From Verrucomicrobiia bacterium (lineage in GTDB: Bacteria; Verrucomicrobiota; Verrucomicrobiia; Limisphaerales; CAIMTB01), in assembly GCA_019634625.1 (NCBI GenBank), contig JAHCBA010000017.1, forward strand, positions 62,001 to 126,000: a DNA stretch of 64,000 nt, read 5' to 3'. The notes under the pieces were generated by a model. It saw only the letters and a program-made list of their open reading frames with translations. It had not been told where the DNA came from and ran no database searches. The position numbers and the translations under genes were made by a program. Below, one piece after another: positions 35,053 through 56,300 of the stretch (within the stretch, counting starts at the first letter, position 1; every line of letters starts with the position of its first letter).

Positions 35053-35066
35053 AAAGGGAGGTGACC

Positions 35067-38000
35067 ATGAAGCGATCCGCTGCGTCCTTGCCGGCCCTGC
35101 TCCGGGCTGGCTGCGTCCTTCTCATGGTGTCGGGTTTGCCGGGAGGGGTCCTAGCGGCCGATGGGGGGGTGGTCGTGCACGATGCAATCCGCTCCGTGGT
35201 GCATAGGCCGGATCGATCGGCCCTGCATCGCCCGGAGGATTCGGCGGTGCACGATCCGGCGCGGTCCGCGGTGCATCTTCCCGATCGATCCCTCCAACAC
35301 GATCCGCTGCGGTCGGAGGTGCATGATGTGTTCCGCTCGGAGCGTCATCGCCCGGAGGACTCGACGGCCCACGATCCGACGCGATCCAAGCTTCATCAGC
35401 CGGCGACCTCGGCAACGCACGATCCGGCGCGGTCGGAAGTGCATGCCCCGGCCCGCTCGGCGCAGCATCGGCCTGAGGATTCGCTGGTCCACGATCCCTC
35501 GGTGTCGGGAGTTCACGCGGTGGAACGGTCGGCGGCGCACCAGGCGCTTCAGTCGGATCTGCACGATCCGGTGCGATCGGCCGGACACGATCCGGACCTT
35601 TCACAACGGCACGACCCGGGCAGTTCGGCGCTCCATCGGCCGGAGCGTTCGGCCATGCACGATCCGGTCCGCTCTCTGCTGCATGTGCCGGCGCGGTCGG
35701 AGGCGGTGGTGGAGGTGCCGGTCCATGATGCGGCGTTGTCGGGAGTGCATCGTCCGGACCGGTCGGCGGTGCATGAGCCGTTGGCCTCGGTGGGGCACGA
35801 TGTGTGGTGGTCATCGCGGCACGAGCCGGCGGACTCGGCGGTGCATTCGCCCGAGCGATCGAGTTTTCATGATGCGGAGCGATCCCGGCTGCACCGGGTA
35901 TTCGACTCGGCGGTGCATAGTCCGGTGCTGTCGGAACATCACGCGGTGGGGCGGTCCGCGGTGCACGAGCCGGGCGTATCGATGCTGCATGCGGTCGAGC
36001 GGTCGGAGGTGCACGACCCGCTGGCCTCGACTCTGCATGCTCCGGTGGTGTCTGCCTCGCATGGGCCGGAAGGCTCCGTGACGCATGGCGCGGCATTGTC
36101 GGCGGTGCATGAGCCGGAGAAGTCGGCGGAGCATCGTCCTGAGCTTTCGGGCGGCCATGCACCGGCGCGCTCGCTGCTGCACGACATCGCGCGTTCGGCG
36201 GCGCATGCGACGGCGGTTTCGGCGCAGCACGACCCGGCGTTGTCGGCGGTGCATGCGCCCGGCGTTTCGGCGGGACACGACCCGTTGCGGTCGGTGGTGC
36301 ACGATCCGTGGTGGTCGGGAATGCACCGGCCGGAGGCATCGGAATGGCATGATCCGGTCCATTCGATCGTTCACGAACCGGATGCCTCGGCGATGCATGA
36401 CCCGCTGGAATCGCTGTTGCATGACGTGCGCGGGTCCCACCAGCACGACGCGATGCGTTCGCGGCGGCACGACGTCTTCCGGTCCCGGATCCATGACCCG
36501 GGCCGGTCGGGGGCGCACGAGCCGCTGGCGTCCCTGTTTCACACCGTCTTCCTGTCATCGCAGCATCTGCCAGGGGACTCCGCGGGGCATGACGCCACAT
36601 TCTCGATGGCCCATGTGCCGGCGACGTCGGGCGTGCATGAGCCCGCCCGGTCGGCAGCGCATGAGCCGAGGGCCTCCGCGACGCACGAGGTGTTGAGGTC
36701 GCTGCTGCATCGTCCGGAGCGATCCGAGATTCATTCCCCCTTCGAATCGCGGCGTCACGATCCGGCGATATCGGTGGCCCATACGGTGGCGGATTCGTCG
36801 CTGCACGCGCCATTGCGGTCGGATCTGCATGATCCGGTATGGTCACGTCAGCACGAGCCGGCGCAGTCGGTCGAGCATGAGCCGGTGCAATCCACCTTCC
36901 ACACGGCGGCGGAATCGCGTGAGCACGGGGTCCTCACGTCGGTGGTGCATGACGTTCTGCGGTCGAGGGAACACCGGCCGGAAGCCTCGGCGACCCATGA
37001 AGTGGTACGATCCCGGCTTCATGATCCGCGGCGGTCGGCGATACACGGGGCGTTGGAGTCGGTGCTGCATTCGCCGGTATTGTCGGCGGAGCATCAGCCC
37101 GGGGTGTCGGCGCGTCACGACGTGCTGGGTTCGATCCTTCATGACCCGGTGGATTCGGTGGTGCACGACGCGGTCCGGTCGGCGGCCCATCAGCCGGCGC
37201 AGTCGGCGCAGCATGCACCGGTGATGTCGATGTGGCATGAGCCGTCCATGTCGCCGGGTCACGATCCGCGCCGGTCGGTGATCCACGACATCCACTGGTC
37301 GCGGCAGCACGGCGATGCTGACTCGCGACTGCACGACGCGGCGGCCTCGATTCTGCACGACCCGGTGCGATCGGCGGCGCATGAACCGCTTCGGTCGGTG
37401 GTGCATGACCCGGTTCGTTCGCGGCGCCACGATCCGGTGCGGTCGGTCTGGCATGACCCGGCGCGGTCGGTGGTGCACCGGCAGGATCTTTCGGGACTGC
37501 ACGAGGCGCTGCTTTCGGCACTGCATGGTCCGGTGCTGTCGCGGTTGCACCTTCCGGGGCCGTCGGCGGAGCACGATCCGGTGCTGTCGATGACGCATGT
37601 TCCGAGCACGTCGGCGACGCACGATCCGGGGGCTTCGAGGCAGCACCGGATCGAGGATTCGGTGGAGCACGGGGTGCTGCGATCCGCGTTGCATGATCCG
37701 AGGCAGTCGTGGGTGCACGACGCGATCCGGTCGGAAGCGCACGATCCGGCGTTGTCGGCGGTGCATGTGCCGGACCGTTCGCGAATGCACCGTCCGCTGA
37801 CCTCGGACATTCATGATCCGGTGTGGTCGGACCAGCATGATCCCGAGGTGTCGCGGGTGCACGATCCGGCGGTGTCGGTGGTGCATGCGCCGACGTTGTC
37901 GGGAGGGCACGAGGCGCTGATCTCCCTGGGGCATGATCCGCTCTGGTCGGGTCACCATGAGGTGGTGCGGTCGCGGGTTCATGATGCCCTGGTGAGCAGC

Positions 38001-41000
38001 CTGCACCGGCCGGTTCGATCGGAGATGCATGTTCCTTCGCGATCGTTCCTGCATTCGCCGGTGATGTCGGATGAGCACAGGCCTGAGCAGTCGCTGGGGC
38101 ATGATCCGGCGTTGTCGGTGGTGCATGAGCCGGTTCGGTCGATCTTCCATGACGCGGGCCGGTCGGCGGCCCATGAGCCTGCGGTGTCGGGGGCGCACGA
38201 TGCGGTGGTGTCACGGATTCACCGGGTGGAGGAATCGATCGTGCATGAGCCGCTGCGGTCGGAGGTGCACGATCCATGGTGGTCGCGGCAGCACCGGCCG
38301 GAGCGGTCGGAGGTTCACGAGGTGGTGTCCTCGCATCTGCACGAGCCGGCGCGTTCCCGGCTGCACGATCCTCTGGCGTCGCTGTTGCACGATCCCGTGC
38401 GATCGCGGCGGCACGAGGCGGGGTTGTCGGGGGTGCACGATCCGGTTCGATCGGCGGTGCACGCGGTGGCGACCTCCGAATGGCACGACCCGGCGAAGTC
38501 GGCGGTTCACGAGGCGGACCGTTCCCGGGTGCATGTGCCGCTGATTTCGGCGCTTCACGATCCGGCGTTTTCCCGGGATCACGATGCGGCGCGGTCCGCG
38601 ATTCATCATCCGGCGGCTTCCGTGCTGCATCGTCCGGAGGAGTCGCGCACGCACGAGCCGCTGCGGTCGCTGGGCCACGATCCGGTGCGTTCGGCCAGGC
38701 ACGAGGCTGCGGCCTCGGAGTTGCATGACGTATTGCGGTCCAACCTGCACGATCCGGGTCTGTCGCGACTGCATCGTCCGGTGGCGTCGGTGCTGCACTC
38801 CGTGCTGATGTCGGCGGAGCACGATCCGGCGGGATCGGGTGGCCACGATCCGGTGGTATCGGCGATCCACGAGCCGGGACGTTCGGCGGTGCACCGGGTG
38901 GGGGTGTCCACGGTGCATGAGGCGATCCGCTCGGTGCTGCACGAGACGGGCGGCTCGGTGTTGCACGATCTTGTCCTATCGAGGGAGCACGATGTGGTGG
39001 TATCGCGGGTGCACGGGGCAGCGGAGTCCCGGGTGCATGAGGTGGTGGCTTCGAGGGTGCACGATCCGGTCCGATCGCGGCAGCATCGTCCGGAGGCCTC
39101 GGCGGAGCATGATCCGGCGGTGTCGGCGGTGCATGTTCCGGATCGTTCCCGGCTGCACCGACCGCTGATTTCGGACATTCACGATCCGGTGTGGTCGGAG
39201 CGGCACGAGGCTGCGGAATCGCGGGTTCATGATGCGGTGTTGTCGGTGGTGCACGATCCGGCGCGGTCGGGGGCGCATGAGCCTGTGCGTTCGGCGGTGC
39301 ATACGCCATGGCAGTCGGAGCGTCATGACGCGGGGGTGTCGGCGGTGCATCATCCGATGCGCTCGAACGTGCATGAACCGCGGGCCTCGGTGATTCACGA
39401 CCCGGTATGGTCCGGGGAGCATCAACCGGCGGCGTCGCTGGTGCATGACGCGGTCCGCTCGACGCTGCACCGGCCGGAGCGGTCGGCGTTGCACGACGCG
39501 CTGACCTCGACGGTGCACGATCCGGTGTGGTCGGAACGGCACCGGCCCGAGCGATCGGGAATTCACGATGCGGCGCGGTCGATGGTGCATGAGGCGCGGC
39601 TGTCGGCGCTGCACGATCCGCTGCGGTCGGCGCTGCATGCTCCGGTGATGTCGGTGCAGCATGCGGTGGCGGATTCGCGCGGGCACGATCCGGCGTTGTC
39701 CATGCAGCATGAAGCCGGGTTGTCGGCGGCGCATGAGGCGTTGCGTTCGCTGCTGCACACGCCGTTCGAATCACGGCTCCATGACGCGGCGCGGTCGGCG
39801 GTGCATGAGGTGGCGACATCGCGGGTCCACCAGCCGGAGCGGTCGGCGGAGCACGATCCGCGGTTTTCGCTGGTGCATGATCCGGTATGGAGCCGGACGC
39901 ACCGCCCGGCGGAGTCGGAGGTGCATGACGCGGTCCGGTCGGTGCTGCACCGGCCGGAGGCTTCGTTGCAGCACGACGCGCTGCGTTCGGCGGTCCATGA
40001 TCCGGTCTGGTCGGGGATGCACCGGCCGGAGGAGTCGCGGATTCACGATGCGGCCCGTTCGGCGGTGCATGAGCCAATGCGTTCGGCCGGGCACGAACCG
40101 CTGCGGTCGGCGGTTCATTCTCCGTTCGCGTCCGGGCGCCACGACGCCGCGAGTTCCGGGGGGCACGATCCGGCGTGGTCGATGGCGCACAACCCGGAGA
40201 ATTCGGTCCGGCACGATCCCCGGTGGTCGTCGGGACATCAGGCGGACTTGTCGGGATTGCACGATCCGCTGCGGTCGATCTGGCAGCCGTTGGAGAGGAC
40301 GGGATTCCGGGTGGGCCGGCTGACGATCGTTCCCGATGCCGGGGGCACGCGGCCGCCTGGAGATACGGACAGCGACACGACGGTTCGTCCGGCGTCGGGT
40401 GTGGCGAATACACGGGGAACGATCGAGTTGCATCCGCCCGAGGGTGCGCCCCAGGTGATTCAACTGGCGGGGGCGAGTCTGATGGCGCTGCAGATCAACG
40501 CCGTCACGGATGACAACGGGAACCTGCTGGACGAGATCCCGATCGAGTTGGCGCAGCTTGAATTGGCGGGTGAATCGCGGTGGGGACCGGTGGTGGTACG
40601 AGTGCGGTCTCCGAGGGTTTGGCCATTCTGCCGGAGCACGGGAGTTCTCGAGGAGGCGGAGAACGTCCAGTCAGGGCGGATCGATTTGCCGCCACTGACG
40701 GCGGAAGGGAAGGGAAATGCCTTCCTGGACCTGGTGCTGGACGTGGGGTTGGGGGATCAGTCGATGCGGGTGCGGGAGGCGGTGCGGGTCCTGGCGGTGG
40801 TCTCGCGGGTTCCGGCGGGGCCGGGCGATACCTTCGAGGCGGCGGGCGCGTTCGAGCTATTTGTGGAAAGGCCGCTTCCGACGGTGGAACCGGGACAGCA
40901 CGACCCGTGTTTGTCGGTGTGGCACGCGGTGGACCGGAGCCTGCTGCATCGGCCGCTGGCCTCTGACATCCACGATCCGGTGTGGTCGGCCGAGCATCGG

Positions 41001-43415
41001 CCGGAGGCATCGGGGCTGCACGACCCGGCGGTGTCGGTGGTGCATGCGCCGGAGCGGTCGGGGTTGCACGAGGTGTTTGCGTCGTTGCTGCACGATCCGC
41101 TGCGGTCCTCGGTGCATGGAACGGAGCAATCGGCCGTGCATGATCCGGGGATCTCGATGTTGCACCGGCCGGAGCTATCGGCCGAGCACGGGGCGTTGCG
41201 TTCGGCGTTGCATGCTCCCTTCCTGTCCTCGGCGCATACGGTGCAGGTGTCGGCAACGCACGACCCGGCCCGATCGATGCTGCATGGTGTCTCGGTTTCC
41301 GTGGGGCACGACGTGCTGCGGTCGGTGCACCATCACCCGGTGGGGTCGGTGCAGCATCTGATCACCGAATCGAGGGTCCATGATCCCTCGGTGTCGCTGG
41401 TGCATCGGGCGGAGGTGAGCGGATTGCATGGGGCGTTGCGATCGGATCTGCACGATCCGGTGTGGTCCCGGGAGCACCGGCCGGAGGTTTCGGCCGGGCA
41501 CGATCCGGCGATTTCGACGGTGCATGGGGCGGACCGGTCGGTGATGCACGATGCGTGGACATCGTTGATCCACGATCCGGTGCGATCGGCGGGGCACGCG
41601 GTGGCGGAATCGCGCAGGCACGATCCGGGGCTTTCGATGATCCACCGGCCGGAGGCGAGTGCCGGGCATGCGGCATTGCGGTCGGCGTTGCATTCTCCAT
41701 TCCTGTCCAGCGGGCATGATGCCACGGACTCGGCGGTGCATGATCCGGCGCGGTCGATGGTGCATTCGTCGATCCGTTCGACGGGGCACGATGCCCTGCA
41801 GTCGGTGGTGCACGATCCGTTGTGGTCGGTGGCACATCGCCCCGAGGATTCGGTGGTGCACGATCCGGCCGTGTCGATGGTGCATGCGGTGGGACGGTCG
41901 GAGTTGCACGGGGCCTTGCGATCGGATGTTCACGATCCGTTCTGGTCTGCGGGGCATCGGCCGGACCTGTCGGCGGCGCACGATCCGGCGGTCTCGCTGA
42001 TCCATGAGGCGGCGAACAGCCGGGTGCATGAGCCGTTGCGGTCGGCGGTGCATTCGCCACTGATGAGCGCGCACCATGAGGCGGACGGATCGCGGCGGCA
42101 TGACGCGGCGCTGTCGGGGGTGCATGAACCGGACCGGTCGGTGGAGGTGCATACGACGGCGCTGTCGCAGCAGCATGGGCCGTTGCGGTCGGCGATTCAC
42201 GAGGTGGCGCGATCGACCCAGCATGGGGCGGCGTTGTCCGGGTTGCATGATGCGGCGCTCTCGGTGGTGCATGAGCCCCTGGCGTCTCGCGGGCATGATG
42301 CGCTGGCCTCGGCGATCCATGATCCGTTGTGGTCCGGGCAGCACGTGGCGGCGGACTCGGCGCGGCACGACGCGGTCCGTTCGATGATTCACGAGCCGGT
42401 GGAATCGGGGCGGCACCTGGTGTTGCGATCGGTGGTGCATTCACCGTTGATGTCGGTGCACCACGGGGCGGAAGCGTCGCGGCTGCATGATGCGGCGGTA
42501 TCGGGATTGCACCTGCCGGGGACGTCCCTGGGTCATGAGCCGTTGTTGTCGGACGTGCATTCGGTGTTGATGTCGCGGCATCACGACCCGGTGGGGTCGG
42601 GGTTGCACGATGCGTTGAAGTCGGTTCAGCACGAGCCGGCGGCGTCGCTTGGGCACGACAGCGTAGGATCGGGGTTGCACACGGTGGAGCAGTCGGGGAT
42701 GCACGATCCGCGGCGCCCGGCGTTTCATTCGCCGGAGCGGTCGCTGGCGCATGACGCCCTGCGGTCGGCGGTGCATGCGCCGCTGGAATCGGCGGGCCAC
42801 GGTGCGGCGTTGTCGGAGGGCCATGATCCGGCACGGTCGGCGGTGCATTTGGCGGCGGTGTCGAGTGCGCACGAGCCGTTGAAGTCGCTGGTGCATGATG
42901 TTCTGCGATCGGAGCAGGTGCACACCCCGGACCGTTCGTTGCAGCACGATCCGGCGCGTTCCGCGGTGCATGAGCCGGCGGCGTCGCTTGGGCACCATCC
43001 GCTGCGGTCGGTGGTGCATGGGGCGGTGGATTCGGGATTGGGTGAGGATCTGGACGGGAACGGGCTGCCGGACGCATGGGAGATTCTGGCGTTTGGGCCC
43101 GGGGTACGGGTGAATGCGGCGGAGGACACGGACGGGGATGGCATGACCAACGAGGAGGAGCTGCGGGTGTGGACGAATCCGGCGGATCCGGAGGATGTGT
43201 TGCGCATGACGGGGATCGAGCCCAGGACGGAGGGGCGGGCGTTGCGGTGGCGGGCGGCGCCGGGACTCCGGTACTTGATTCAGTGCACGGCGGATCTGGC
43301 GGATCCGGAGGGATGGCAGACGATCGGCTCGGTGGTGGCGGACGGGCCGGTGGCGGTGTTCACGGATGCCAATGTGGACGGGACGCGATTCTTCTACCGG
43401 ATCGTTGTGGAGTAG
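35067..43415 (+). CDS. Giant secreted octapeptide-repeat protein, x-S-x-x-H-[DE]-P-x
   Basis: The protein has 2782 residues. Start ATG 35067 has a strong RBS and a signal peptide (LLRAGCVLLMVSGLPGGVLAA). Two repeat blocks carry the octad x-S-x-x-H-[DE]-P-x: residues about 38-1732 with 212 octads, and about 1945-2650 with 89 octads. Ser and His are almost invariant. Between them lies a beta-rich domain (residues about 1738-1940), resembling an extracellular domain I recall in verrucomicrobial and cyanobacterial proteins (IPIELAQLELAGESRWGPV ... GRIDLPPL). The C-terminus has a Ca-binding-type pair DLDGNGLPD and DTDGDGMT and ends FFYRIVVE, typical of verrucomicrobial exoproteins. No anchor or sorting motif is visible. 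The role is unknown: a surface filament, adhesin or metal-binding solenoid are possible. The following small secreted-protein gene is likely in the same operon. I do not recognise the repeat. Confidence 0.9.
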   Translation: MKRSAASLPALLRAGCVLLMVSGLPGGVLAADGGVVVHDAIRSVVHRPDRSALHRPEDSAVHDPARSAVHLPDRSLQHDPLRSEVHDVFRSERHRPEDSTAHDPTRSKLHQPATSATHDPARSEVHAPARSAQHRPEDSLVHDPSVSGVHAVERSAAHQALQSDLHDPVRSAGHDPDLSQRHDPGSSALHRPERSAMHDPVRSLLHVPARSEAVVEVPVHDAALSGVHRPDRSAVHEPLASVGHDVWWSSRHEPADSAVHSPERSSFHDAERSRLHRVFDSAVHSPVLSEHHAVGRSAVHEPGVSMLHAVERSEVHDPLASTLHAPVVSASHGPEGSVTHGAALSAVHEPEKSAEHRPELSGGHAPARSLLHDIARSAAHATAVSAQHDPALSAVHAPGVSAGHDPLRSVVHDPWWSGMHRPEASEWHDPVHSIVHEPDASAMHDPLESLLHDVRGSHQHDAMRSRRHDVFRSRIHDPGRSGAHEPLASLFHTVFLSSQHLPGDSAGHDATFSMAHVPATSGVHEPARSAAHEPRASATHEVLRSLLHRPERSEIHSPFESRRHDPAISVAHTVADSSLHAPLRSDLHDPVWSRQHEPAQSVEHEPVQSTFHTAAESREHGVLTSVVHDVLRSREHRPEASATHEVVRSRLHDPRRSAIHGALESVLHSPVLSAEHQPGVSARHDVLGSILHDPVDSVVHDAVRSAAHQPAQSAQHAPVMSMWHEPSMSPGHDPRRSVIHDIHWSRQHGDADSRLHDAAASILHDPVRSAAHEPLRSVVHDPVRSRRHDPVRSVWHDPARSVVHRQDLSGLHEALLSALHGPVLSRLHLPGPSAEHDPVLSMTHVPSTSATHDPGASRQHRIEDSVEHGVLRSALHDPRQSWVHDAIRSEAHDPALSAVHVPDRSRMHRPLTSDIHDPVWSDQHDPEVSRVHDPAVSVVHAPTLSGGHEALISLGHDPLWSGHHEVVRSRVHDALVSSLHRPVRSEMHVPSRSFLHSPVMSDEHRPEQSLGHDPALSVVHEPVRSIFHDAGRSAAHEPAVSGAHDAVVSRIHRVEESIVHEPLRSEVHDPWWSRQHRPERSEVHEVVSSHLHEPARSRLHDPLASLLHDPVRSRRHEAGLSGVHDPVRSAVHAVATSEWHDPAKSAVHEADRSRVHVPLISALHDPAFSRDHDAARSAIHHPAASVLHRPEESRTHEPLRSLGHDPVRSARHEAAASELHDVLRSNLHDPGLSRLHRPVASVLHSVLMSAEHDPAGSGGHDPVVSAIHEPGRSAVHRVGVSTVHEAIRSVLHETGGSVLHDLVLSREHDVVVSRVHGAAESRVHEVVASRVHDPVRSRQHRPEASAEHDPAVSAVHVPDRSRLHRPLISDIHDPVWSERHEAAESRVHDAVLSVVHDPARSGAHEPVRSAVHTPWQSERHDAGVSAVHHPMRSNVHEPRASVIHDPVWSGEHQPAASLVHDAVRSTLHRPERSALHDALTSTVHDPVWSERHRPERSGIHDAARSMVHEARLSALHDPLRSALHAPVMSVQHAVADSRGHDPALSMQHEAGLSAAHEALRSLLHTPFESRLHDAARSAVHEVATSRVHQPERSAEHDPRFSLVHDPVWSRTHRPAESEVHDAVRSVLHRPEASLQHDALRSAVHDPVWSGMHRPEESRIHDAARSAVHEPMRSAGHEPLRSAVHSPFASGRHDAASSGGHDPAWSMAHNPENSVRHDPRWSSGHQADLSGLHDPLRSIWQPLERTGFRVGRLTIVPDAGGTRPPGDTDSDTTVRPASGVANTRGTIELHPPEGAPQVIQLAGASLMALQINAVTDDNGNLLDEIPIELAQLELAGESRWGPVVVRVRSPRVWPFCRSTGVLEEAENVQSGRIDLPPLTAEGKGNAFLDLVLDVGLGDQSMRVREAVRVLAVVSRVPAGPGDTFEAAGAFELFVERPLPTVEPGQHDPCLSVWHAVDRSLLHRPLASDIHDPVWSAEHRPEASGLHDPAVSVVHAPERSGLHEVFASLLHDPLRSSVHGTEQSAVHDPGISMLHRPELSAEHGALRSALHAPFLSSAHTVQVSATHDPARSMLHGVSVSVGHDVLRSVHHHPVGSVQHLITESRVHDPSVSLVHRAEVSGLHGALRSDLHDPVWSREHRPEVSAGHDPAISTVHGADRSVMHDAWTSLIHDPVRSAGHAVAESRRHDPGLSMIHRPEASAGHAALRSALHSPFLSSGHDATDSAVHDPARSMVHSSIRSTGHDALQSVVHDPLWSVAHRPEDSVVHDPAVSMVHAVGRSELHGALRSDVHDPFWSAGHRPDLSAAHDPAVSLIHEAANSRVHEPLRSAVHSPLMSAHHEADGSRRHDAALSGVHEPDRSVEVHTTALSQQHGPLRSAIHEVARSTQHGAALSGLHDAALSVVHEPLASRGHDALASAIHDPLWSGQHVAADSARHDAVRSMIHEPVESGRHLVLRSVVHSPLMSVHHGAEASRLHDAAVSGLHLPGTSLGHEPLLSDVHSVLMSRHHDPVGSGLHDALKSVQHEPAASLGHDSVGSGLHTVEQSGMHDPRRPAFHSPERSLAHDALRSAVHAPLESAGHGAALSEGHDPARSAVHLAAVSSAHEPLKSLVHDVLRSEQVHTPDRSLQHDPARSAVHEPAASLGHHPLRSVVHGAVDSGLGEDLDGNGLPDAWEILAFGPGVRVNAAEDTDGDGMTNEEELRVWTNPADPEDVLRMTGIEPRTEGRALRWRAAPGLRYLIQCTADLADPEGWQTIGSVVADGPVAVFTDANVDGTRFFYRIVVE
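35178..40262 (+). repeat. 24-bp coding tandem repeat array, block 1 (212 octads)
   Basis: The span runs from the first to the last repeat His codon; it is 211 units of 24 bp plus one 18-bp insertion near 35702 (RSEAVVEVPVHDAA in place of an octad). Unit sequences vary at the base level (for example TCG, TCC, TCT and AGC serine codons), so the array is not a recent expansion. Confidence 0.9.
40899..43019 (+). repeat. 24-bp coding tandem repeat array, block 2 (89 octads)
   Basis: The span from first to last repeat His codon is 88 units of 24 bp plus two single-codon insertions (RSVEVHTTA and RSEQVHTPD). One octad lacks the Ser (RRPAFHSP). Same consensus as block 1. Confidence 0.9.
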
Positions 43416-43457: not shown

Positions 43458-44657
43458 ATGAGTTTCCTGACGCGCACTGGACTTGGATGGGGGCTTCTGA
43501 TGGTGCTCCTGAATGGGGGCGTGACGGTTCGGGCGGCGGCGCCCGGGTCCTCGCAGGGTGTTGGAGGGCTGGGGACGGGTTCGTACCTGTCGCTGCAGCA
43601 ATGGCGGAACGAGGGCTACTACAGCAAGGGGGTCGATCCGAACGACGTGGACGCGTATTTCTGGCATGTGTACTCGCGATTGCCGGAGGAGGTGACCATC
43701 TATCCGTCGGAGAACTACTATTATTTCATCGACTACATCGACGGGATGCAGATCTGGGGGAACATCCGGCTGCCGGCGGGGCGGAGGGAGCGGGGGGTGT
43801 TGTCGTTCGGGTACTCGGAGTATGTGGAATTTCCGAGTTCGCCTGGGAGTTATCTGAGCCGGTCGAAGTATTTCACGGATGCGGACGGGCTGACGATCAC
43901 GGAGCTGGACAAGCACACGTACCGGGTGCGGTACAACGGTCGGTCGGTGACCTTTCATTTGCACCGGCTGCGGCAGGATCCGCCGGAGAGGTTTCCGGTG
44001 CGGTCGAACGAGGCGTTCATCATGCGGACGTTCGATGAGTCGGGGATCCAGTTCTTTCTGATGTTCAACACGGATCGGAACTGTTTCTTCTGGGTCTTGA
44101 ACGAGGAGGAGCCGGTGCCGGATACCTTTACGACGTTGGAGAAGGACATCGTGGTGGGCCGGCGGACGGGTTTTGCGTTCTGGAACGACGAGGCAAACGG
44201 GGGCCGGAAGGTGCTGGCGATGATCCGGAAGATCAGCGTATTGCGGAACGACTATTACGACGGGCCGTTCGACCAGCTGGCGGACAATTATGTGGAGCAG
44301 ACGCGGATCTCCGAGTGGATGGAGCGGGCAATTCCGTCGATCAAGGGTCGGATCGACCGGTACGGGTATTACACGGACACGGAGCGGCCGTCCCGGGTGG
44401 CATTGTCCACGTACGGGACGTATTACACGCAGGCGGAGATCATCGAATTTGTGAAGCGGGCCAAGGCGGCGACGGACATTTACCAGTACATCTCCCGGGG
44501 GGGGGTGCCGACACCGGAGGAATACGCGGCGCAGCTGGCGGCGGCGCGAACGAATGCGCCGCCGACGTTGGTCCAGCCGCCGCGCGCGGAGGGGGAGCGG
44601 GTGGTGGAGGAGGGTGAGGGCGGGGATGCGGTGAGGCGACGGGCCGGCGGGCGGTGA
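43458..44657 (+). CDS. Secreted protein of unknown function, partner of the octad-repeat gene
   Basis: The protein has 399 residues from the ATG at 43458, with a signal peptide (LGWGLLMVLLNGGVTVRA). The mature part is rich in Tyr and Phe and looks beta-rich, for example YPSENYYYFIDYIDGM and YYTDTERPSR. The C-terminal 50 residues are low-complexity and charged (ERVVEEGEGGDAVRRR). It starts 42 bp after the giant gene on the same strand, so co-transcription is likely. No family is recognised. A role in export, folding or surface attachment of the repeat protein is a guess from position only. Confidence 0.75.
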   Translation: MSFLTRTGLGWGLLMVLLNGGVTVRAAAPGSSQGVGGLGTGSYLSLQQWRNEGYYSKGVDPNDVDAYFWHVYSRLPEEVTIYPSENYYYFIDYIDGMQIWGNIRLPAGRRERGVLSFGYSEYVEFPSSPGSYLSRSKYFTDADGLTITELDKHTYRVRYNGRSVTFHLHRLRQDPPERFPVRSNEAFIMRTFDESGIQFFLMFNTDRNCFFWVLNEEEPVPDTFTTLEKDIVVGRRTGFAFWNDEANGGRKVLAMIRKISVLRNDYYDGPFDQLADNYVEQTRISEWMERAIPSIKGRIDRYGYYTDTERPSRVALSTYGTYYTQAEIIEFVKRAKAATDIYQYISRGGVPTPEEYAAQLAAARTNAPPTLVQPPRAEGERVVEEGEGGDAVRRRAGGR

Positions 44658-44733: not shown

Positions 44734-45390
44734 GTGAAGGGGCTGATGGATCAGGTGATGGAGTTGCCGACGCTTCCGGAATTTGTGGCCGAGTTGGACG
44801 CGCGGCTGACGGCGGAGCGGGAGCGGCGGCGCCGGTTTTACGAGGGACTGCCGGACGGGGCGAAGTGGGAGTTCATCAATGGCGAGACTGTCATGCATTC
44901 GCCGGACCGGGTGGTGCACATGGCGGTGCGGGCGCGGCTGGAGCGATTGCTGAGCGCCCATGTGGACGCGAGGGGCATGGGGTTGGTTCTTGGGGAGAAG
45001 GGACTATGCGTTTTTCCGCGGAACGACTTCATGCCGGATGTGATTTACTTTGGAACGGAGAAGGCGGCGGGGTTGCAGCCCGGGCAGGTCCGCCTTCCGA
45101 TTCCGGACCTGGCGGTGGAGGTTTTGTCGGAGTCGACGGCGTCGCGGGACCGCGGGGTGAAGTTTCGCGACTACGAGGCGCACGGCGTGCGGGAGTACTG
45201 GCTGGTCGATCCGGAAGCAGAGAGTTTGGAGCAGTATGTGCTGGGGCAGGGGGGATACGCGCTGGTGGTGAAGTCGGGGGATGGGCGGGTGCGATCGCGG
45301 GTTATCGAGGGATTCGAGATCCCGATACGGGCGTTGTTCGACGCGACAGCGAATCTGACGGCGTTGCGCGGCCTCTTGGAGCCTGTCTGA
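44734..45390 (+). CDS. Uma2 family endonuclease-like protein (DUF820)
   Basis: The protein has up to 218 residues (start GTG 44734; ATG at 44746 is an alternative). A PD-(D/E)XK-type core is visible as FMPDVIYFG and PDLAVEVLSEST, followed by KFRDYEAHGVREYWLVDPE, which is characteristic of Uma2/DUF820 proteins. These are abundant in cyanobacteria and PVC bacteria; the biological role is unclear. Stand-alone gene. Confidence 0.85.
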   Translation: MKGLMDQVMELPTLPEFVAELDARLTAERERRRRFYEGLPDGAKWEFINGETVMHSPDRVVHMAVRARLERLLSAHVDARGMGLVLGEKGLCVFPRNDFMPDVIYFGTEKAAGLQPGQVRLPIPDLAVEVLSESTASRDRGVKFRDYEAHGVREYWLVDPEAESLEQYVLGQGGYALVVKSGDGRVRSRVIEGFEIPIRALFDATANLTALRGLLEPV

Positions 45391-53703: not shown

Positions 53704-54945
53704 TCACCGGCGGGTGGGAAATGGGCGGGTTTGGAAGGTTTCGGATGCTGCCTCCCAGGCCGCCTGCAGATCCCGCAAGTCAGCGGGCACCAGGCTGCCC
53801 TCGCCCTCAATCCGGTGCCCCGTCAACAGGAGAGCGCTGCGTTCCAATTCGTCCGGGGATCGAGGATCGTAAGCCAGGCGTCGTTGCCACAAGGCTGCGA
53901 GTGCGTTCGGCGAAGGGAGGTGCCCGGCATCCGTGGGGTTCGGCGGGTCGAAGTCGATCGGCGATCCTGCGAGGGTCCAAGGCAGTCCCGAGGGCAACTC
54001 CCAGAGCCAGGCCCGCAGATCCTCCGTCACCGTCAGTAGCAGTGCTCCGGATTCTCCGAGAAATGCGATGTACCGGACGCCGGCTGGGTGGGGAAGCGGC
54101 GGCGAGACGACCTGCCCCGATTCAAGGTTCCAGACTCGGACCGAGTGGCCGCTGTCGAGAGTGGCGAGGTGCGGTCCGCTGGGAGCGAAGACCGCACCCA
54201 CGACCGTGCCGCGATGCCGCAGGGGCAGCGCGAGCGGTTGGCCCGTCCTGGCATCGCAAACCCGTGCGGTTCCATCGTAGCCGGTTGTGACCAACCGCGT
54301 GCCGTCGGGATCGAACGTGCCGAAGACGGCCAGGTCATCGTGACGAGGGGTCTCAACCAGGGGCTGCGCCGTGTCCATGCACCACATGCGACCCGCCCCA
54401 TCGTCGCTGACGGTCAGGAGGCGGCGTCCATCCGAGGCGAACGCCATGTGCCGAACGGCGGTATCCGGAATGGGGACAACCCCGAGGAGGTCGCCGGAGG
54501 TTGTCTCGTAACGATGGACATGGGTGCCGCCGGGGTCCGACAGGAAGATGACGGTCCCCAAGGTGTCCAGACTGATCGTGCGACTGCGGGGCGGTCCCTG
54601 CCAGGAGGCAGTCTTGCGGAGTCGTGGATACGGGTCATGGGGAGCAGGATTCGTCGCGGGCTCCGGATCGAAGACCGTCACCGTTCCGTCGGCGGGGCGG
54701 TAGAGGACGAGTCGTTGGGTCGTGGGGGCGAAGGCGTGGCGATCGGCTTCGACGAAGGTCTCGACTGGCAGGAGCCATTCGATGGTCCCCGAGAGGAGGT
54801 TGGCCAGGGCAGGACCGATTGCCGGCAGGCGCACCAAGGCGTACCGGGCATTGTCGCCGCACGCGTGGGTCTCCGCCAGTTCGGCGCGCCCGGCCGGTTC
54901 ATGCAGGGCCCACAAGCGGATCGATCCGTCGAGGCTCACAGCCAT
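53704..54945 (-). pseudogene. WD40 repeat C-terminal fragment of a broken kinase-WD40 gene
   Basis: About 413 residues of WD40 blades (CDARTGQPL, VWNLESGQVV) in one frame. It continues upstream beyond the first ATG with HILTHAELSLDGTRLM, which directly adjoins the C-terminus of the next fragment in another frame. Removing one base from the G8 tract at 55004-55011 joins the two frames. This is therefore the C-terminal end of one gene, not an independent gene. Confidence 0.8.
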
Positions 54946-54970
54946 CAGTCTGGTGCCGTCCAGGCTGAGT

Positions 54971-56300
54971 TCAGCGTGGGTGAGGATATGGGTATGGGGG
55001 ATCGGGGGGGGTGAGGGGGCGGCCCGTCTCGATGTCCCAGACGCGCGCGCGTTCTGCCGTGGCGGTCATGACGCGCCGCCCGTTGGCGGACCATCCCACC
55101 CAGACGACGGCACTGCGGCTGCCGGGGTGAGAAATCGAACGAACGGCCGTACCTCGACGCCAATCCCAAAGGCGGGCCGAGCCGTCCGACTCGGTGGCCA
55201 GGAGGTGACTGCCGGTCGGGTCAAAGCGTGCCTGACGGACGGAGCGTCCTGCGGTCAGTGTGGCCGCCAGGGTGGCGTCGGGGAGGTGCCATACGCGGAA
55301 GACTGGGGAGGCGCTGGCCGAGACGAAGTACCGGCCCGTCGGCGCGACTTCGACATGGGAGATCAGGCCCTCGTGAAGGGGGGTGACGGCCAGACGCCGC
55401 CCTGTGGCAGCGTCCCAGACGGACACCGTTCGATCACGGCCACCGCTGACGATCAGGCGGCCGTCCGGGCTCCAGTCGGCAACGAGGATGCCGGCCTCAT
55501 GGGACATGGGTGCACCGATGGGTTGGCCCGTGGTGGCACTCCAACAACGGATCGTGCGGTCAAGACTGGCCGTCAGGATGCGGGATCCATCCGGGCTGAA
55601 GCGCGCGACGCGGACCTCGTTGGCGTGGGGAAGGGGAGGGGACAGCAGGCGGCCGGAGGCGGTGTCCCAGAGGCGCGCGTCGAGATTGCCGGCGCTGACG
55701 AGGCGGGAGCCGTCCGGGCTGAAGTCCACCCTGAAGAGCAGGGTGAGACCCGCACCGGGATTGGCATGCGGGCGCGGCAATCCAATCTCGGCACCCGTAG
55801 CGGTGTCCCAAACCCGCACGGTGCCGTCATAGCTGGCCGTGGCGGCCCGGCTGCCGTCGGGGCTGAAGGCGGCGTGTTGAATGAGGCGTTGATGGAAGCG
55901 GATTGCCCGGAGGTCGGGCATCTCCTGGAGCACGGACGCGATGCGCGTGCGGTGGGCGAACTCGCGGGTGGAAGACCCGGCATCGGCGCGCAGGGCCTTG
56001 GCGAGCCAGGGGAGGGCGAAGACCGGGTCATCCGCCCGGGCGGCGGCGACGCCCGTGTTGACCATCATGCGAACGAGTCGGCCATGACTTTCGGCGGCCG
56101 TGTTGCGGGCCTCGTCGCGGGCGTCGCGGAGACGGAAGGCCAGGGCGGTGGACCCGAAGGCGGTGAGGACAAGTACCAGGGCCAGGGTGGAACTCAGAGC
56201 GGCGGTGAGGGGGTTGGTGCGAATCCAGGATCCGAGGCGTTCCGAGGCGGTGGGAGGGCGGGCATGGACCCATTCCCGTCGGAATTGGTGGGCTTGAGGT
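54971..56300 (-). pseudogene. WD40 middle fragment of the broken kinase-WD40 gene
   Basis: The open frame 54971-56068 gives about 365 residues of WD40 blades (SYDGTVRVWD, SGGRDRTVSVWD). In-frame sequence upstream of the first ATG continues with a transmembrane-like segment (ALSSTLALVLVLTAFGSTALAF) and the charged linker typical of kinase-WD40 proteins, back to about 56300. There the frame differs from the kinase part. It ends TPPDPPYPYPHPR at a premature stop. Confidence 0.8.

Follow-up and report, generated by a model that had tools for sequence, protein, structure and literature searches.

The 64,000-nucleotide stretch of the genome of a Verrucomicrobiia bacterium analyzed here (the window) encodes a 2782-residue protein, predicted to be exported, that consists almost entirely of 301 eight-residue repeats (octads) of the general form x-S-x-x-H-[DE]-P-x. 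These octads are not equivalent to one another: the real repeat comprises five octads, or 40 residues, and recurs in two homologous proteins, whose genes are followed, like that of the window, by a gene for a second secreted protein (here called the partner).

The open reading frame of the octad protein extends from position 35061 to position 43415 of the forward strand; ATG 35067 is very likely its start codon, and translation to the stop at 43415 gives 2782 amino acids. The features of this locus are listed in Table 1. The preliminary description of this DNA had counted 301 octads (212 + 89) in exact register, with one 18-bp insertion in the first block and two 3-bp insertions in the second; all these numbers were reproduced by translation and motif counting. 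Its prediction of an exported product agrees with the signal-like N terminus, which is present in the homologues as well. The stretch that separates the two blocks exceeds the usual 2-residue Ser-to-His link by 205 residues. The region that includes the TSP3-like repeat and the C-terminal domain matches ∼25 other open reading frames or places in the same genome, so that it probably serves more generally as a module for export or anchoring; it is also the single feature of the octad protein that points to a cell-surface location. A 1159-residue open frame antisense to the octads (36934-40413, minus strand) is a by-product of their TCG/CAC-rich codons and, on present evidence, is not a gene.

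Table 1. Features of the octad protein gene and its downstream neighbor (positions in the window)
Feature	Position	Strand	Basis or remark
Ribosome-binding site AGGGAGGTGA	about 35055-35064	+	Read in sequence; strong, 5' of ATG 35067
Giant octad-repeat protein, 2782 aa	35067-43415	+	Open reading frame and translation
Predicted signal peptide MKRSAASLPALLRAGCVLLMVSGLPGGVLA	35067-35156	+	From sequence; cleavage site placed by eye
Octad block 1, 212 octads	35178-40277	+	Motif count
Ser-to-His link with +6 residues (18-bp insertion), block 1	35700-35723	+	
Non-repetitive domain between blocks, 207 residues in one Ser-to-His link	40278-40898	+	
Octad block 2, 89 octads	40899-43034	+	Five-octad order clearest here; no slips over 51 octads
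Ser-to-His link with +1 residue, block 2	42141-42149	+	
Ser-to-His link with +1 residue, block 2	42912-42920	+	
Bacterial TSP3-like repeat (PF18884)	43125-43190	+	Pfam, E value 4e-4, under Pfam's cut-off
C-terminal domain, ends FFYRIVVE	43200-43412	+	Role inferred
Secreted partner gene	43458-44657	+	Frame opens with TTG 43440; likely start ATG 43458

The window protein contains 295 S-x-x-H motifs, which are spaced by exactly 8 residues in 289 of 294 cases, and 300 H-x-x-x-x-S units; a single Ser is replaced by Pro in block 2. As many as 292 of the 295 octads are distinct, no two of them are identical at the DNA level, and their His residues are encoded by CAC (152) and CAT (143) at a ratio of about 1:1. 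Such diverged units, with no DNA-identical pairs and with mixed His codons, speak against a recent microsatellite expansion and indicate, at the level of sequence, that selection on the protein has kept Ser and His constant. The regular ladder of almost invariant Ser (position 2) and His (position 5) noted in the preliminary description was confirmed by the motif counts. Its statement that the His is followed by DP, EP, or RP holds in part: Asp, Glu, and Arg are the commonest residues at position 6, but they occupy it in only 41%, 17%, and 12% of the octads, respectively, and Pro is found at position 7 in only 62%, followed by Ala (20%) and Val (13%). The octads are rich in Ser, His, Ala, and Pro, with 0.2% Lys, 1.8% Gln, 1.4% Met, and no Cys, and their mean hydropathy (0.438) is near the order/disorder boundary (0.427).

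The higher-order repeat became apparent from the autocorrelation of the octads in the window protein, which peaks at lag 5. When five octad types were fitted as a cyclic model, the training gain on this protein was 426 nats, versus 137 to 166 nats after the order of its octads had been shuffled. Periods from 1 to 8 were compared by training the models on two of the three homologous proteins and testing them on the third. Five octad types performed best each time (gains of +131, +50, and +25), versus −57 to +16 for the other periods of 2 to 8, making period 5 the sole tested period with a clear cross-protein gain. The reported models use stronger pseudocounts, as small ones resulted in overfitting, and the periods were poorly separated when the model was trained on the shortest protein alone. 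The 40-residue unit can be roughly written as xS-x-x-HDPA / [RVL]S-x-V-HxPx / xS-x-x-HDPL / RS-x-[VLI]-HDPV / [RW]S-x-Q-HxPx, with the hydrophobic positions 4 and 8 of the octad varying with the five-octad phase and with phase slips at roughly 4-5% of octad steps. The phase also looked partly preserved across the insertions, but the prior of the model favors such continuity, and this observation was set aside as evidence.

The three proteins combined have 731 H-x-x-x-x-S units and about 33 insertions or deletions, 20 of which involve just 1 or 2 residues. All of these are located between a Ser and the next His (+1 in 16 cases; the remainder include +2, −1, and larger insertions, the longest of 205 residues), and none alters the His-to-Ser distance in any of the 731 units. 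Were the small ones spread evenly over the eight junctions of the octad, the chance of their avoiding H-[DE]-P-x-x-S would be about (3/8)^20, or 3e-9. The rare losses of Ser in these proteins are substitutions by Thr or Pro. After subtraction of the protein and phase means, the charge at position 6 proved to be anticorrelated with the charge at position 8 (i,i+2; r = −0.42, z = 11.1) and at position 1 of the next octad (i,i+3; r = −0.24, z = 6.3); nothing as large was seen elsewhere among the 909 tests of covariation. The confinement of insertions and deletions to one link, together with this charge coupling, marks H-[DE]-P-x-x-S as one compact unit (a brick) and the two residues from Ser to His as a loop or link able to carry inserted sequence; given also the conserved 40-residue order, this pattern argues against a floppy polymer. 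The brick is probably a compact turn led by its Pro, within a folded chain, and the indirect evidence favors a solenoid-like ordered chain. There was no clear covariation at octad lags 2 to 8, i.e., beyond neighboring octads, so that the geometry of a coil could not be read from these data.

Structure prediction, which the preliminary description had proposed as a check, was run with AlphaFold2 on 25 octads and gave no confident fold (mean pLDDT of 35 and pTM of 0.17, from a shallow alignment built solely of pieces of the window). The same low-confidence model has helical turns at the P-x-x segments of many octads; combined with the Pro after Asp/Glu and with the i,i+2 and i,i+3 coupling, these modeled turns suggest a proline-led turn or the N terminus of a helix. 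In ordinary helices, a hydrophobic staple can be formed by the residue before the cap and residue N4. By analogy, not homology, the His and Ser of the octad would occupy these two positions of the staple motif, which is discussed in PMC4429112. The Arg at position 1 and the Arg or Glu at position 6 are not ideal residues for a helix N terminus and count against the helical reading.

The two homologues of the octad protein come from other families of the same order (2662 residues with 250 S-x-x-H motifs; L147) and of the same class (about 1516 residues with 153 such motifs; L161). Both combine a signal-like N terminus and octads with a C terminus that resembles the TSP3 repeat and the last domain of the window protein. 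By eye, the N-terminal part of the former (L147 6458-14446, minus strand) resembles a BACON-type domain preceding the octads; Pfam reported none. These protein searches covered the order, the family of one match, and genomes drawn evenly from the phylum, with about 900 genome searches, some of them repeated. The octad protein was absent from the four congeners in the protein searches, and the DNA beside the orthologous T2SSK gene in three of these four contained neither the partner nor the octads, which makes the two-gene cassette an accessory one. Adjacency of the cassette to type II secretion genes is likewise not meaningful, given that the congeners carry the T2SSK ortholog without an adjoining cassette. 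Searches of viral contigs, phages, and plasmids found no true relatives of the octads, and, when 84,980 genomes were scanned for the DNA pattern, the inspected runs among the matches listed resembled simple repeats or short open reading frames of low complexity. One genome (G009) contains a 128-residue open reading frame with a signal-like start and about ten SGAHQAPK octads (L129 1242-1628) that show the S-x-x-H-x-x-P spacing in miniature; the partner gene was not found in that genome, and these octads are possibly convergent.

The partner has a signal-like N terminus; searches of Pfam, NCBIfam, PHROGs, PADLOC, and PDB gave no credible match for it. In all three octad genomes, it is encoded directly downstream of the octad gene, on the same strand and separated from it by roughly 40-100 bp; the window partner shares 71% identity with the one in genome G043 (over 322 residues) and 56% with the one in G384. 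Among the genomes drawn from the order and the phylum, only G048 and G673 encode the partner without octads, and a search of both with the octad profile found nothing. Adjacency to octads in three genomes out of three, versus two partner-only cases in several hundred other genomes, makes a functional link between the two proteins likely, as judged from gene neighborhoods. Aromatic, Asp, Asn, and Gly residues are invariant at many positions of the partner alignment, as in RNDYYDGPFDQLADN and YPSENYYY; AlphaFold of the partner alone gave a pLDDT of about 35 and no confident fold. No relatives of the partner were found in viral contigs or plasmids.

The partner copies without octads map to L168 9807-10958, where the copy adjoins an open reading frame of 1584 residues with TSP3-like stretches on the opposite strand, and to L172 13152-14417, where an in-frame TGA falls within the matched stretch. 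Among other neighbors, a Uma2-family (putative restriction endonuclease) gene immediately follows the window partner (44734-45390) and was not found in the congener DNA read beside T2SSK; two adjoining WD40 beta-propeller genes are located at 53704-56068 of the window (minus strand); and in G043 the DNA downstream of the partner encodes a protein of TSP3-type repeats that carries CxxC and His motifs (ETCEICKEVVNMGYM...HFLDHG; L147 2-2074, minus strand).

The octad protein can be envisaged as a giant exported rod or fiber of folded H-[D/E]-P-x-x-S bricks joined by Ser-x-x-His links, a reading to which we assign about even chances. Each brick would be a compact proline-led turn or a single helical turn, and five of them would form one 40-residue structural repeat. 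In the helical register, Asp, Glu, or Arg would serve as the N-cap, with Pro at N1, Ser at N4, and His just before the cap. The His and Ser residues would then lie on one side and could hydrogen-bond to each other, forming a continuous ladder along the chain, and the Ser-to-His links, including any domains inserted there, would face outward. The TSP3/C-terminal module would export the protein or anchor it at the cell surface, and the secreted partner would assemble, anchor, or modify the rod. More tentatively, and with distinctly less confidence, we suggest that the repeats adopt a new fold whose axis is polar, namely, a rod of hundreds of proline-capped bricks that has the near-invariant His/Ser hydrogen-bond ladder as its interior or one of its faces, with a dedicated secreted partner, itself of a new family, to build or decorate it. 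Such a ladder could possibly bind metals or protons or could be purely structural; the metal-binding, filament, and adhesive roles named in the preliminary description are conjectural. Among giant exported repeat proteins, this one combines the lack of a known family with invariant Ser and His in about 730 units of three proteins, an 8-within-40 repeat, the insertion rule, and a partner that matches nothing in the family libraries searched. If the ladder is indeed an ordered core, the protein would represent a genetically encoded imidazole rod, of interest for capturing metals, for responding to pH, and for designing protein materials; with a 40-residue unit and a cassette of two genes, small constructs are enough to test it.

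The octad protein might instead be a metal sponge, i.e., a secreted high-capacity Zn, Cu, or Ni buffer with one His (often followed by Asp/Glu) per octad, similar to the Met/His octapeptides of CopA and CopB, with metal binding as its main function. Its 316 His residues among 2782, almost never lost, would fit this role, and a tblastn search with the octads does match the CopB Met/His octads on plasmids of Cupriavidus and Comamonadaceae (E value 5e-19). However, this match consists of short MQGMDHSK repeats with about 30% identity and looks compositional; Met is scarce in the window protein; no metal transporter, oxidase, or regulator was seen among the Pfam-scanned neighbors (about 29-56 kb); and a pure sponge would need neither the invariant Ser, nor the five-octad order, nor indels limited to one link. 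We regard this explanation as rather unlikely. To a similar degree, we doubt that the chain is a beta-solenoid with each octad as one side of a coil, the D-P as a corner, S-x-x-H as a short bulge-tolerant strand, and the 40-residue period as one or two turns. The exact spacing, the loop-like insertion site, and the phase-dependent hydrophobic residues would all suit such a coil, but its strands would be very short, Pro is present in 62% of the octads, PDB offers no match, and long-range covariation is not evident. A disordered, sticky or gel-forming polymer (an adhesive or a matrix) crosslinked by the partner is less probable still: the low AlphaFold confidence and the composition near the disorder boundary are what one would expect of it, whereas one-link indels and a conserved 40-residue order are not. 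That the region is an untranslated tandem-repeat or antisense artifact, akin to the numerous microsatellites, apparently noncoding, that the DNA pattern scan found elsewhere with an identical 24-bp spacing, is hardly credible in view of the ribosome-binding site, the signal peptide, the 2782 stop-free codons, and the synonymous drift around invariant Ser and His; the homologues from two other families, each followed by the conserved gene, already contradict it.

The view that the octads belong to no described repeat family has held up, as Pfam, NCBIfam, PHROGs, and PDB gave no credible match. The one profile match to a described family, Cornifin/SPRR (PF02389), scored 81.1 bits on the window protein, with a curated cut-off of 34.8; octads with shuffled columns still scored 57 bits, and the 2662-residue homologue scored only 16, so that the score reflects the period and the [DE]-P, and membership was rejected. 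Both kinds of protein have proline-containing eight-residue repeats, but Cornifins are animal crosslinking repeats rich in Gln, Lys, and Cys, whereas the octads have no Cys, almost no Lys, and little Gln. The PADLOC match to "REase_II" (2e-11), in which no single stretch passes on its own, was taken as a repeat artifact. No paper was found on octapeptide repeats in Verrucomicrobia, ALTTAQ, or HeliScrew. The ALTTAQ repeat (PF20080) and HeliScrew4 (PDB 9zem) also have eight-residue units; the former did not match the window protein in Pfam at E values of up to 1. The HeliScrew4 octad, L-[ST]-P-[ED]-[QK]-[IV]-A-A, places its Pro at position 7 of the window octad in weak blastp alignments (E value 0.09, not significant, a comparison by sequence) but has hydrophobic Leu and Ile in place of the invariant His and Ser. 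Long tandem repeats in exported bacterial proteins include ice-nucleation octads and RTX nonads, whose motifs differ from that of the window octads; Pfam reported none of the beta-solenoid profiles (RTX, ice nucleation, pentapeptide) for the window protein. The copper-binding octarepeat of the prion protein has eight residues with one His, but it is Gly/Trp-rich, is present in few copies, and lacks an invariant Ser, and the PDB search revealed no relation to it. The CopA/CopB octapeptides, detected by tblastn, share His- and Ser-containing octads in an exported protein; they are Met/Gly-rich, are found in about 10-20 copies, and adjoin multicopper oxidase and copC genes, whereas in the window protein Met is rare and no cop genes are seen among the scanned neighbors. 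Neither the CopB octads nor the ALTTAQ repeats are more than analogues. Proteins of this general kind, giant, exported, and repetitive, are already known; what is new here, as judged by sequence comparison, is the repeat family and the family of its partner.
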